From Marinosulfonomonas sp. (GTDB lineage Bacteria; Pseudomonadota; Alphaproteobacteria; Rhodobacterales; Rhodobacteraceae), in contig JAHRVC010000124.1 in NCBI GenBank assembly GCA_019090885.1, forward strand, positions 1 through 34,741: a stretch of DNA of 34,741 nucleotides, written 5' to 3'. Position numbers and translations under genes: made by a program. The stretch's first letter is position 1. Every line of letters starts with the position of its first letter. Shown piece after piece: positions 14,406 to 20,494 of the stretch. The notes beneath the pieces were generated by a model. The model worked only from the letters and a program-made list of their open reading frames with translations, made no database searches and was not told where the DNA came from.

Positions 14406-14435
14406 GGCTTATTCCATTAGGCAAAGTTGTAGCGT

Positions 14436-14459
14436 TCCCTTCCGCGAGCGCGGAAGGGA
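14436..14459. other. Strong stem-loop in the soxA-soxB intercistronic gap
   Basis: TCCCTTCCGCG-AG-CGCGGAAGGGA: 11-nt perfect inverted repeat, no U-tract following on either strand. Confidence 0.8.
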
Positions 14460-14482
14460 TGGTTATTTAAAGACAGGTATTT

Positions 14483-16158: not shown

Positions 16159-16632
16159 TCACTCTTTCAGTGTCAGCAAGTAGGCCACAACATCTTCGAT
16201 TTGCTGGGCCGTCAGCAACGGCGGCAGATCGCCCTCGGCGGCCTTTCCGGTAAAAGCTTTGCCGGGTCGGATATACCCTTTGGTTTTGTAAAACGCGGGC
16301 ATCATTGTGTCTTCGAAGGTCATTTTGGCATTGGCAACAATTCCGCGAAGCTCTGCTTCGCTCCAACGCTCGGAAACACCGTCAAGTGTCGGGCCAATTT
16401 CACCGTGGAACGGCGAGTTCAGCAATTCAGTGACTTCGTGACAAGCGATGCAGTTACCCTGCCCGCGCGTCGTCATCACAATTTTTCCGGCAGCGGCATC
16501 GCCAGTTGCCCCTGAAAGCGACTGTTCAACAGCGCCTTCTTTGTACATGACAGCGGTTGGATCAACTGTTTCGGCAGACACGAGCCCTGCCCCCGCTGCT
16601 GTCCATGCCATCGCAATCAAAATTCGCTTCAT
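16159..16632 (-). CDS. soxX: SoxX, monoheme cytochrome c
   Basis: Signal peptide; single heme motif GNCIACHEV; C-terminal QQIEDVVAYLLTLKE. Confidence 0.94.
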   Translation of the reverse strand: MKRILIAMAWTAAGAGLVSAETVDPTAVMYKEGAVEQSLSGATGDAAAGKIVMTTRGQGNCIACHEVTELLNSPFHGEIGPTLDGVSERWSEAELRGIVANAKMTFEDTMMPAFYKTKGYIRPGKAFTGKAAEGDLPPLLTAQQIEDVVAYLLTLKE

Positions 16633-16694
16633 GCGTCCTCCCGTTTATATTTTTTTTATACGATAGCCCAGTCACCCAAAATTTCGCAACAACA

Positions 16695-16712
16695 AATTCC
16701 ATTATTTGAATT
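16695..16712. promoter_or_regulatory. Putative SoxR operator in soxW/soxX gap: AATTC-N8-GAATT
   Basis: Perfect 5-bp inverted half-sites (AATTCCATTATTTGAATT), about 60 nt upstream of the soxX start. Confidence 0.6.
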
Positions 16713-16733
16713 TTTTTGCCTGCACTTCGGTGT

Positions 16734-17312
16734 TTAGTTGGCCTGTCCGTCCCTGCGTTCGTTAATTCGGCGCGCATGATAACGCTGAAAATCCTCTTCG
16801 TTATCAAGTAAATATCGTTCTTCATTAACCCATGTAAACATGTCGATCGTGGTGAAAAACTCAAAGGCGCCGGGCATGACTGCAACGGCTGCCTGTGTCG
16901 CGGATCGCCCGTCGGGCACGTCTTGCGGCATGAATAGAATCGTCGGTGTGAACAGCAGCCCCCACTTTCGCGCCAGTGCCTTTTCGCTCAGAATATCGCC
17001 GTCAAAATCGGTTACATCGACATCTCCGTGCAAGTTTAGCTGCACAACGAAAAAGTTTTCGCGGATATAGTCGGCAAGTTCGGGGCGGGGGAAAACCTCT
17101 TCGTGCATTTTCGTGCAGTAGATGCAGCCGCGTTGTTCAAAAATCAGCGCCAGGCGTTTGCCTTCACTGTTTGCTTCGGCCAGATCTTCGGCCAGATCCT
17201 TGAACGTGTCGCGCATCCAGTCGGTTTTGTGCAGCCCGTCGTCACCGATATCTGCTGCACCCAAGGGGCTGGCAATGATCAGTGCAAGGAACAGTGCAAA
17301 TAGTCGTTTCAT
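16734..17312 (-). CDS. soxW: SoxW, periplasmic thioredoxin-like protein
   Basis: Signal peptide; FEQRGCIYCTKMHEEVFP (CxxC); between soxV and soxX. Confidence 0.9.
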   Translation of the reverse strand: MKRLFALFLALIIASPLGAADIGDDGLHKTDWMRDTFKDLAEDLAEANSEGKRLALIFEQRGCIYCTKMHEEVFPRPELADYIRENFFVVQLNLHGDVDVTDFDGDILSEKALARKWGLLFTPTILFMPQDVPDGRSATQAAVAVMPGAFEFFTTIDMFTWVNEERYLLDNEEDFQRYHARRINERRDGQAN

Positions 17313-17327
17313 CTTATCCTCCTCGGA

Positions 17328-18071
17328 TTAACCAAGAGCGCCAATATTTGGCCAGAACTCAAGCATCCATTGTGCAATATAGTTGATGCTATCTGTCGCA
17401 ATAAGCACGCCGAAAACAATAAGAAACAGCCCCATGACTTTTTCCATGGTTCCCAGATGTCGGCGAAACCTGTGCATGAACCTCATGAACGGCCCAACAA
17501 AAAACGCCGCCAATATGAACGGCGATGTCATTGCGAACCCGTAGACAAACAACAAGGCCGCACCACGTGTAGCGCTTTCAGCACCGGCCGCCGCGAACAG
17601 GATCGCCGCCAGAACCGGGCCGACGCAGGGCGTCCAGCCAAAGGCAAAGGCCAGCCCGATGACATAAGAACCGATCAGGCTGGCATTCTTGGTCGAACCG
17701 GCATCAGAGCGAAACTGGCGATAAAGAAATCCAATGCGCAACACGCCCAGAAAATGCAGCCCCATCACGATGATGATCGCCGCGGCAATCCAGCGCAAAA
17801 CGCCGAACCACTCGCGCACCAGCTGGCCAAACAGGCTGGCCCCTGCCCCCAGCGCGACAAAGATAGTTATCACACCGGCTGCAAAAAATACTGATGAAAT
17901 CACCGCGCGTTTGCGCACAGCAGGCGTGAATCCGCCCCCACCAGCGCTTATCTCACTCATGCTCACTCCGGCCAGATAGCTTAGGTAAAACGGCACAATC
18001 GGCAGAATACAGGGCGACAGAAACGATAGCAGCCCTGCAACAGCCGCCCCGATAAACGATACATCCAGCAC
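17328..18071 (-). CDS. soxV: SoxV, CcdA-family transmembrane thiol transporter
   Basis: FLSPCILPIVPFYLSYLAG and GWTPCVGPVLAAIL CcdA motifs, multi-TM. Confidence 0.93.
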   Translation of the reverse strand: MLDVSFIGAAVAGLLSFLSPCILPIVPFYLSYLAGVSMSEISAGGGGFTPAVRKRAVISSVFFAAGVITIFVALGAGASLFGQLVREWFGVLRWIAAAIIIVMGLHFLGVLRIGFLYRQFRSDAGSTKNASLIGSYVIGLAFAFGWTPCVGPVLAAILFAAAGAESATRGAALLFVYGFAMTSPFILAAFFVGPFMRFMHRFRRHLGTMEKVMGLFLIVFGVLIATDSINYIAQWMLEFWPNIGALG

Positions 18072-18086
18072 AGCGATCCCTTGTCC

Positions 18087-18104
18087 AATTCACATATTCG
18101 AATT
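18087..18104. promoter_or_regulatory. Putative SoxR operator in soxV/soxS divergent gap: AATTC-N8-GAATT
   Basis: AATTCACATATTCGAATT, same half-sites and spacing as 16695-16712. Confidence 0.6.
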
Positions 18105-18140
18105 ATTACTCATTTTGAGCATTCGTCAATCGGAACAAAT

Positions 18141-18512
18141 ATGAAAACGATATTCCTTGTTACGATATCTGTCTGGCTGGCGCTGGTAGGCACCAGCGTT
18201 CAGGCCGCCGAACTGGTGATGATCGAGGAAGACGGCTGTGTCTGGTGTGCGCGATGGAATCAGGAGATTGCGCCTATCTATCCAAAAACTGCGGCCGGAA
18301 AATTTGCGCCGCTGCGCCGTTTCGACAAAAACGGCCCGTTTCCTGACACTCTGAAATTTAGCGGCAAGTTTTTTTACACGCCAACATTTGTTGTGATCGA
18401 AAATGGCGCGGAAATCGGCCGTATCGAGGGCTATCCCGGCGAAGATTTCTTTTGGGGGTTGCTTGAAAAAATTCTTTCCGACTTCACATCATTTCCGGAG
18501 GTTCAATCATGA
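18141..18512 (+). CDS. soxS: SoxS, periplasmic thioredoxin
   Basis: Signal peptide MKTIFLVTISVWLALVGTSVQA; MIEEDGCVWCARWNQEI (CxxC); FFYTPTFVVIENG. Start at ATG 18141 within ORF 18081..18512. Confidence 0.88.
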   Translation: MKTIFLVTISVWLALVGTSVQAAELVMIEEDGCVWCARWNQEIAPIYPKTAAGKFAPLRRFDKNGPFPDTLKFSGKFFYTPTFVVIENGAEIGRIEGYPGEDFFWGLLEKILSDFTSFPEVQS

Positions 18513-19018
18513 AAACCCACGCAATCGCCGCCCTGGCAGCGCTAGCAGTTTGCGCGACGCCGATACTTGCAGACGACGACGACAATGCATTCGTTGACTT
18601 CAAGGTTCTCAAACCAGAAGTGGCCCAAAAAATGGCGCAGGCCGCGCTGCTGGCATGCCGGGACATGGGCTTTCAGGTTGGCGTTATGGTGGTGGACCGC
18701 TTTGGTATCCCGCAGGTTTTTCTGCGCGACCGTTTTGCTGGTCTGCATGTTTTCGAAACCGCTCAGCGCAAGGCATGGACCTCCGTTAGCTTTCGCACCA
18801 ATACGACGGATCTGAACGAAGCGACCCAGCCGGGGTCTATATCCCTTGGCATTCGGGACCTGTCCAAAGCCCTGCCCCTTGGCGGCGGGCTGGTTGTGTT
18901 TGAGGGGGCGGGCAGTCTGGTGGCCGGCATCGGCGTTTCGGGCGCCCCGTCACCTGATATTGATGACGAGTGCGCGCAGGCCGGAATTGACGCCATCGAC
19001 GATATGATATCTTTTTAA
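18509..19018 (+). CDS. Exported HbpS/GlcG-family (DUF336) heme-binding-like protein
   Basis: Signal peptide; AQAALLACRDMGFQVGVMVVDRFGIPQVFLRD; GGGLVVFEGAGSLVAGIGVSGAPSPDIDDECAQAGIDAI. ATGA overlap with soxS. Confidence 0.85.
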   Translation: MKTHAIAALAALAVCATPILADDDDNAFVDFKVLKPEVAQKMAQAALLACRDMGFQVGVMVVDRFGIPQVFLRDRFAGLHVFETAQRKAWTSVSFRTNTTDLNEATQPGSISLGIRDLSKALPLGGGLVVFEGAGSLVAGIGVSGAPSPDIDDECAQAGIDAIDDMISF

Positions 19019-19039: not shown

Positions 19040-19375
19040 ATGGCACTTCCGGTCATTGACGAAAACATGTCAGACGACGAAATCACCCGGATGATGGACA
19101 ACGCCTGCGAGGCGTCAAATTTCCTTAAGGCGATCAGCCATGAGGGGCGGTTGATGATCCTGTGCCATCTGGCGACGGGCGAGAAATCGGTTACCGAACT
19201 TGAAGACCTGTTATCCGCCCGGCAGGCAGCTGTTTCCCAGCAATTGTCACGCCTGCGGCTGGAAGGGCTGGTAAACCCGCGCCGGGACGGAAAGCTGATC
19301 TACTATTCGCTGGCCGATGAGCGCGCGACACAGGTTCTTGATGTGGTCTATGAATTGTTCTGCAAGGATTCTTGA
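19040..19375 (+). CDS. soxR: SoxR, ArsR-family thiol-responsive repressor
   Basis: Winged-helix ArsR: FLKAISHEGRLMILCHLATGEKSVTELEDLLSARQAAVSQQLSRLRLEGLV. Cys at 23, 42 and 108. Confidence 0.9.
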   Translation: MALPVIDENMSDDEITRMMDNACEASNFLKAISHEGRLMILCHLATGEKSVTELEDLLSARQAAVSQQLSRLRLEGLVNPRRDGKLIYYSLADERATQVLDVVYELFCKDS

Positions 19376-19438: not shown

Positions 19439-20494
19439 ATGTTAAGCGACGTTTCTGAACCGCAACTTGTTGCGGCTTTCGGCCTATTTGGCGGTATATT
19501 TTTGGGCCTTGCCGCAAGGTTTGGCCGGTTTTGCACCCTCGGCGCGATCGAAGACCTTCTTTATGGCAGCAGCGATACGCGCCTGCGCATGTGGGTGTTG
19601 GCCATCGGCGTGGCTATCGTCGGCAGTTTCGCGCTGTCGGGCGCAGGCCTTTTGGACATTGGGCAATCAATTTACCACAGCCAGCCATGGAGCCCGACGG
19701 CCAGCGTTCTGGGCGGGCTGATGTTTGGGTATGGCATGGCGCTGGCGGGCAATTGCGGCTTTGGCGCGCTGGCCCGGCTGGGCGGCGGTGACCTGCGATC
19801 TTTTGTGATTGTGCTGGTGATGGGGCTGGCGGCCTATGTCACGCTGTCAGGCCCACTGGCTGTCAGCCGGTTATGGTTCACGACGGCCACCACGGCCTAT
19901 TCCGGGCCAACGCTTGGCTATGCCGGATTGCTGGCAGATATATCAGGGCTGCCGCTGGTCATTCCCGGCGTGCTGATTGGGTTGATTATCATCGTGGCAG
20001 CGCTGTCTTCGCGCAGTTTCATTGCTGAGCGGTCCTCGGTCATCTGGGCGGCAATCGTTGGCCTTACAATTGTCAGCGGGTGGGCCGGAACCGCCTATGT
20101 ATCGGCCACCGGATTTGAAGGCACCCCGGTCGTTTCGCATACGTTTTCAGCCCCTATTGGCGAAAGCCTGCTGTTCCTGATGACGTCCAGCGGGGGCGGG
20201 CTTAGCTTTGGCGTCGGTTCGGTTGCAGGCGTGTTGTTTGGCGCGTTTATTGGCAGCTTGATAAAGGGGCATTTTCGTTGGGAGGCCTGCGAAGATCCGC
20301 GCGAATTGCGCCGCCAGATCGTTGGCGCGGCGATAATGGGCGTGGGCGCGGTTTTGGCGCTTGGCTGCACAATCGGTCAGGGGATTTCGGCCTTTTCGCT
20401 GCTGTCGTTTTCAGCACCGATCACATTTGCGAGCATATTTTTGGGCGCAACATTTGGCCTGCGACAGCTTATTTCCGGATTTGGCACCGTTTGA
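19439..20494 (+). CDS. YeeE/YedE (TsuA/SoxT-like) sulfur-compound transporter
   Basis: Multi-TM with conserved Cys motifs GRFCTLGAIEDLL, GNCGFGALARLGGGDLRS, GCTIGQGISAFS. Confidence 0.88.
   Translation: MLSDVSEPQLVAAFGLFGGIFLGLAARFGRFCTLGAIEDLLYGSSDTRLRMWVLAIGVAIVGSFALSGAGLLDIGQSIYHSQPWSPTASVLGGLMFGYGMALAGNCGFGALARLGGGDLRSFVIVLVMGLAAYVTLSGPLAVSRLWFTTATTAYSGPTLGYAGLLADISGLPLVIPGVLIGLIIIVAALSSRSFIAERSSVIWAAIVGLTIVSGWAGTAYVSATGFEGTPVVSHTFSAPIGESLLFLMTSSGGGLSFGVGSVAGVLFGAFIGSLIKGHFRWEACEDPRELRRQIVGAAIMGVGAVLALGCTIGQGISAFSLLSFSAPITFASIFLGATFGLRQLISGFGTV

Follow-up and report, generated by a model that had tools for sequence, protein, structure and literature searches.

The type of switch considered here is already known, and it has been described in several bacteria. 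For the regulator SqrR, the motif ATTC-N8-GAAT was deduced, and it is common to SqrR and YgaV (PMC9774250). In Paracoccus pantotrophus and Pseudaminobacter, the divergent soxS and soxV promoters are SoxR-regulated (PMC5748708). In Hyphomicrobium denitrificans, SoxR is a sox repressor that is released from DNA by sulfane-sulfur bridging (PMC10451225), with SoxT1B relaying the signal (PMC11582611). What the present analysis adds is the wiring that becomes visible when relatives are compared, including a third site that appears to have been lost. The stretch of DNA analysed (34,741 bp; hereafter, the window) contains a sox locus in which a first-pass annotation had marked two AATTC-N8-GAATT palindromes as likely SoxR operators. 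The SqrR motif that it named agrees with PMC9774250, and the action of SoxR in the soxV/soxS gap of P. pantotrophus agrees with PMC5748708. The operator reading is supported here, with corrections concerning the degeneracy of the soxV/soxS site, a soxA-soxB site, and the position of the soxX site.

The sox locus and its regulator

The genes around the two palindromes are as follows:

16159..16632, minus strand: soxX, cytochrome, first gene of soxXYZAB... (TIGR04485)
16734..17312, minus strand: soxW, thioredoxin (PF13098; synteny by tblastn)
17328..18071, minus strand: soxV, CcdA/DsbD-type, GTG start (PF02683; synteny)
18141..18512, plus strand: soxS, which opens the rightward unit soxS-hbpS-soxR-soxT (tblastn synteny with relatives)
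19040..19375, plus strand: soxR, predicted persulfide-sensing repressor of the ArsR family, 111 aa, with Cys42 and Cys108
19439..20494, plus strand: soxT, YeeE/TsuA-like transporter (TsuA/YeeE family matches under the cut-off)

The best PDB match of SoxR is SqrR of R. capsulatus (6o8l set; 8e-37; 64/97 residues identical). The recognition helix is near-identical in the two proteins (RQAAVSQQL.RLRLEGLV), and both sensing cysteines of SoxR, Cys42 and Cys108, align with the SqrR pair. The protein also has the ArsR winged-helix fold (PF01022 HTH_5, E 1e-10). Against the NCBIfam BigR equivalog NF040642 it scores 98.2 bits, under the cut-off of 155, and it is therefore not considered to be BigR proper. 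A search of the genome (~92% complete) yielded no second gene of the SoxR/SqrR type. By analogy, SoxT is the likely supplier of the sulfur signal. An HbpS-like heme-binding protein gene (18509-19018) lies between soxS and soxR and is present in only a subset of relatives. SoxR-like genes that are 72-77% identical also occur outside sox clusters (L062, L086, L156, L159, and L177); no strong ATTC-N8-GAAT was found in the fetched flanks of these five distinct genes (six loci, L062 being the same as L144).

Palindromes and promoters in the sox gaps

The predicted operators and promoters are arranged as follows:

16660..16689, minus strand: predicted soxX promoter (-35 TTGCGA at 16689-16684, 18-nt spacer, -10 TATCGT at 16665-16660)
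near 16653, minus strand: predicted soxX start
16695..16712, no strand: predicted SoxR operator O(WX), AATTC-CATTATTT-GAATT, around positions -59 to -42 in the soxX promoter
18081..18109, plus strand: predicted soxS promoter (-35 TTGTCC at 18081-18086, 17-nt spacer, -10 TATTAC at 18104-18109; predicted start near 18116)
18087..18104, no strand: predicted SoxR operator O(VS), AATTC-ACATATTC-GAATT, filling the soxS spacer and overlapping the soxV -10
18102..18129, minus strand: predicted soxV promoter (-35 TTGACG at 18129-18124, 16-nt spacer, -10 AATAAT at 18107-18102; predicted start near 18095)

Both 18-mers are present where they had been annotated, with the same half-sites and an 8-nt spacer, and the exact pattern occurs nowhere else in the window; dinucleotide shuffles of the window (n=100) gave a mean of 0.09 copies and never two (0/100). 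A pattern search of the whole genome (2.96 Mb, ~92% complete) returned seven copies. Two of these are in the sox gaps, and none of the remaining five was found in a gap immediately 5' of a gene start; they sit within long open frames or at the 3' ends of ORFs. The motif as such is not placed at random. The shorter core ATTC-N8-GAAT has 41 copies in the genome, which indicates that the core by itself is unspecific and that specificity resides in the place and the flanking A/T. Over the whole window, core matches with at most one mismatch are not enriched (11 vs. 18 expected), so the signal lies in the exact sites and their position and not in loose counts. The two sites are located within the 101-bp soxW-soxX gap and the 69-bp soxV-soxS gap. 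These had been described as the only sizeable gaps of the sox locus, which is incorrect, since the soxA-soxB gap (77 bp) exceeds that of soxV-soxS and the soxR-soxT gap measures 63 bp.

SoxR relatives (80 named loci plus family genomes) served for comparison; their loci were placed by tblastn, and the gaps were extracted and deduplicated. Exact ATTC-N8-GAAT is present in 104/116 of the relatives' soxW-soxX gaps (0.55 in shuffles), and 114/116 contain it with at most one mismatch (9 in shuffles). These and all further gap counts stem from genomes that are related to one another, and they do not represent independent events. Spacers other than 8 nt gave almost no matches. The half-sites are invariant and do not covary, which points to DNA recognition, and the spacer sequence varies freely. 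On the soxX strand, the relatives have, in a constant register, the operator, 6 nt, TTGCGT, 18 nt, TAnnnT, and the Shine-Dalgarno sequence GGGAGGA. The soxX site is thus found just upstream of the -35, at a fixed phase, and not across the core promoter.

The soxV/soxS palindrome is perfect in the window but degenerate in most relatives, with exact ATTC-N8-GAAT in 4/155 soxV-soxS gaps (0.7 in shuffles) and matches with at most one mismatch in 66/155 (10.6 in shuffles). The identical architecture of the two sites therefore holds within the window, whereas across relatives both half-sites are kept only at the soxX site. A score matrix built solely from the relatives' soxW-soxX sites found the soxV-soxS site blind: scores of at least 8 were obtained in 38% of the relatives' soxV-soxS gaps vs. 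0.9% of shuffles, and 55/59 matches share one register, immediately 3' of the -35. In the window, the same matrix gives 24.2 for 18087-18104, 20.9 for 16695-16712, and 4.0 for the next-best match. A further clade keeps ATTC-N8-GATT at the soxV-soxS position. Conservation of the sites in orthologous sox gaps, on which the first-pass annotation had made its proposal depend, was thus found. By eye, a different palindrome, ACATAT-N10-ATATGT, was seen at the soxV/soxS position in L029 and other Roseovarius, Litoreibacter, and Roseobacter loci; these loci belong to the group whose SoxR proteins are closest, and their soxX site is still ATTC-N8-GAAT.

In 122 aligned gaps of relatives, the soxS promoter elements CTTG and TA are conserved at 93-98% and 100%, respectively. 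The soxV promoter matches sigma-70 at 10/12 positions, with its GTCAA conserved at 91-95% in aligned gaps, and the outer -35s of the soxV-soxS gap are conserved at 91-98%. The palindrome at 18087-18104 corresponds exactly to the 17-nt soxS spacer plus one base. Because it fills this spacer and overlaps the soxV -10, a single dimer bound there should block both promoters, judging from the sequence. The promoter elements identified are consistent with the proposal that one repressor controls three promoters (soxV, soxS, and soxX).

Between soxA and soxB, AT[GT]C-N8-GAAT occurs in 92/111 of the relatives' gaps (0.6 in shuffles), ~26 bp before soxB (e.g., in L142, L158, and L063), and, as seen by eye, a GC-rich terminator-like hairpin precedes it. 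An internal soxA-soxB operator is predicted, and no report of one was found in the papers searched. In the window, the soxA-soxB gap (14406..14482) and its surroundings contain no such site (best matrix score -2.2), and this third predicted operator position appears to have been lost from the genome.

Loss of soxR, alternative readings and the proposed switch

Two family genomes without a SoxR match (G129 and G091, each at least 97% complete) have kept the soxSVWXYZAB order and lack soxR-soxT as well as the soxW-soxX, soxV-soxS, and soxA-soxB sites. In G129, the -35 before soxX (TTGTTGTTGCGT) is still present, as are both outer -35s. Site loss tracks soxR loss in these two lineages, and for the soxX site the association has a Fisher p of 9e-4 with relatedness ignored. 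The soxX site is kept and no soxR was detected in G213 (62% complete), the contig of which stops short of the expected soxR position. Relatives without soxR can be regarded as natural knockouts. In the loci L256 and L257, the sox cluster is kept and soxR-soxT and every operator site are lost, which suggests that thiosulfate oxidation may be constitutive or under different control there.

It is improbable that O(WX) alone is a genuine operator and that the soxV/soxS palindrome is mostly promoter (-35, ACATATTCA element, and -10), perfect by chance. The right half-site does overlap the conserved -10, and part of the conservation may be that of the promoter; moreover, G18100 in this half is common to 9/122 relatives (A in 90%), the perfect half being nearly private to the window, and the exact palindrome is rare among the gaps, as given above. 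However, neither hexamer includes ATTC (18088-18091), which is located in the spacer between -35 and -10 and is still 67-77% conserved, and the independently trained matrix yields scores far in excess of shuffles, in a fixed register. Further arguments against a mere promoter are the SoxR-controlled promoters known in the soxV-soxS gap of other species (PMC5748708), the clade with ATTC-N8-GATT at the same place, and G129, which is without soxR and lost the site while retaining the -35s. There is a small but appreciable chance that SoxR is bound at soxX and acts other than by simple occlusion, e.g., by touching RNA polymerase and holding or helping it. The site at -59 to -42 is upstream of the -35, which is not a classical blocking position, its distance is constant in ~110 relatives, and the adjacent promoter (TTGCGT-N18-TACGGT) is weak. 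Yet SoxR is a repressor in the species studied, and the footprint of an ArsR dimer, ~30 bp, would extend over the -35.

The use of both sites by a different regulator of similar specificity (a separate SqrR or BigR) is very improbable: although SqrR and YgaV have the motif in common (PMC9774250), a single SoxR/SqrR-type gene was found in the ~92%-complete genome, soxR is adjacent, and site loss follows the loss of soxR-soxT. A role of the palindromes as terminators of transcription or as stem-loops in RNA can practically be discounted. The soxX site is situated ~22 nt after the soxW stop codon, but the arms are AT-rich and 5 bp long, and no terminator was called at either site; a terminator or RNA hairpin was rejected because the half-sites are invariant, covariation is absent, and the spacer is free.

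The sites, their conservation, the way in which they are placed on promoter elements, their disappearance together with soxR, and the kinship of SoxR and SqrR are read directly from sequence, and both palindromes are very probably operators for the product of the local soxR (19040-19375). We infer SoxR binding, repression, and the sulfur trigger in this organism to proceed as follows. Without a sulfur signal, reduced SoxR dimers would occupy both sites. The dimer at 18087-18104 would cover the core of the overlapping divergent promoters, shutting off soxVW leftward and soxS-hbpS-soxR-soxT rightward, and hence soxR itself. The dimer at 16695-16712, at the upstream edge of the soxX -35, would block or hinder transcription of soxXYZAB. 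In the presence of thiosulfate or sulfide, sulfane sulfur, probably via SoxT, would bridge Cys42 and Cys108; the bridged SoxR would leave the DNA, and the soxV, soxS, and soxX promoters would open.

On another contig of the same genome (C219), CATTCACATAGTGGAATG is present at 3842-3859 of L213, ~100 bp before a pmpA-pmpB-blh operon, i.e., a sulfur transport pair and a metallo-beta-lactamase-type persulfide dioxygenase, named by resemblance to known operons. No regulator gene adjoins the operon on C219, and G061 of the same genus has a divergent SoxR-like gene there, which suggests that SoxR may act in trans on pmpA-pmpB-blh; a comparable site before pmpA exists in only a few of 30 relatives' loci, and this is a lead only. 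Other motif matches in the genome, close to the genes for a MerR protein and PGI, to a TetR/transposase pair, and to a 170-aa ORF, were set aside as convergent, coding, or uninformative. It is tentatively proposed that, across the family, SoxR may use a graded three-operator circuit (strong at soxX, weaker at soxV/soxS, and a further operator before soxB), and that the lineage of the window may have lost the third operator, perfected that of soxV/soxS, and recruited SoxR in trans to pmpAB-blh after the local regulator was lost. With the present analysis, a loosely described repressor target is converted into exact predicted operators with promoter coordinates, for marine thiosulfate oxidisers that form a widespread group.

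Comparison with described regulators

SoxR of P. pantotrophus and Pseudaminobacter salicylatoxidans belongs to the same family and has the divergent soxSR/soxVW layout and the repressor role in common with the window (PMC10451225 and PMC5748708). In Paracoccus, a genus that has been studied experimentally, the sequences at these positions are degenerate (P. pantotrophus DSM 11072 and P. denitrificans), which indicates that the clean motif is a trait of roseobacter-type relatives and not of every SoxR system: P. pantotrophus DSM 11072 has ATTC-N8-AAAT in soxV/soxS and ATAG-N8-GAAT in soxW/soxX, whereas both sites of the window are perfect ATTC-N8-GAAT. SoxR/sHdrR of H. denitrificans is sulfane-sulfur-responsive and soxT-linked and binds several sox intergenic regions; its sites were selected for being repeats, either inverted or direct, and ATTC-N8-GAAT is not given in the text searched. 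BigR of Xylella and Agrobacterium has the same fold, and its cysteines are likewise numbered Cys42 and Cys108; it binds to its own operon at the -10 region and controls a persulfide dioxygenase gene. Its identity to the window SoxR is lower, and the blh-type operon is here located on a separate contig and has no regulator of its own. SqrR of R. capsulatus resembles the window SoxR in sequence (the 64/97 identity), recognition helix, both cysteines, and the ATTC-N8-GAAT motif. The targets of SqrR are sulfide-dependent photosynthesis and sulfide genes, whereas the SoxR of the window is encoded in, and predicted to be aimed at, the sox cluster.
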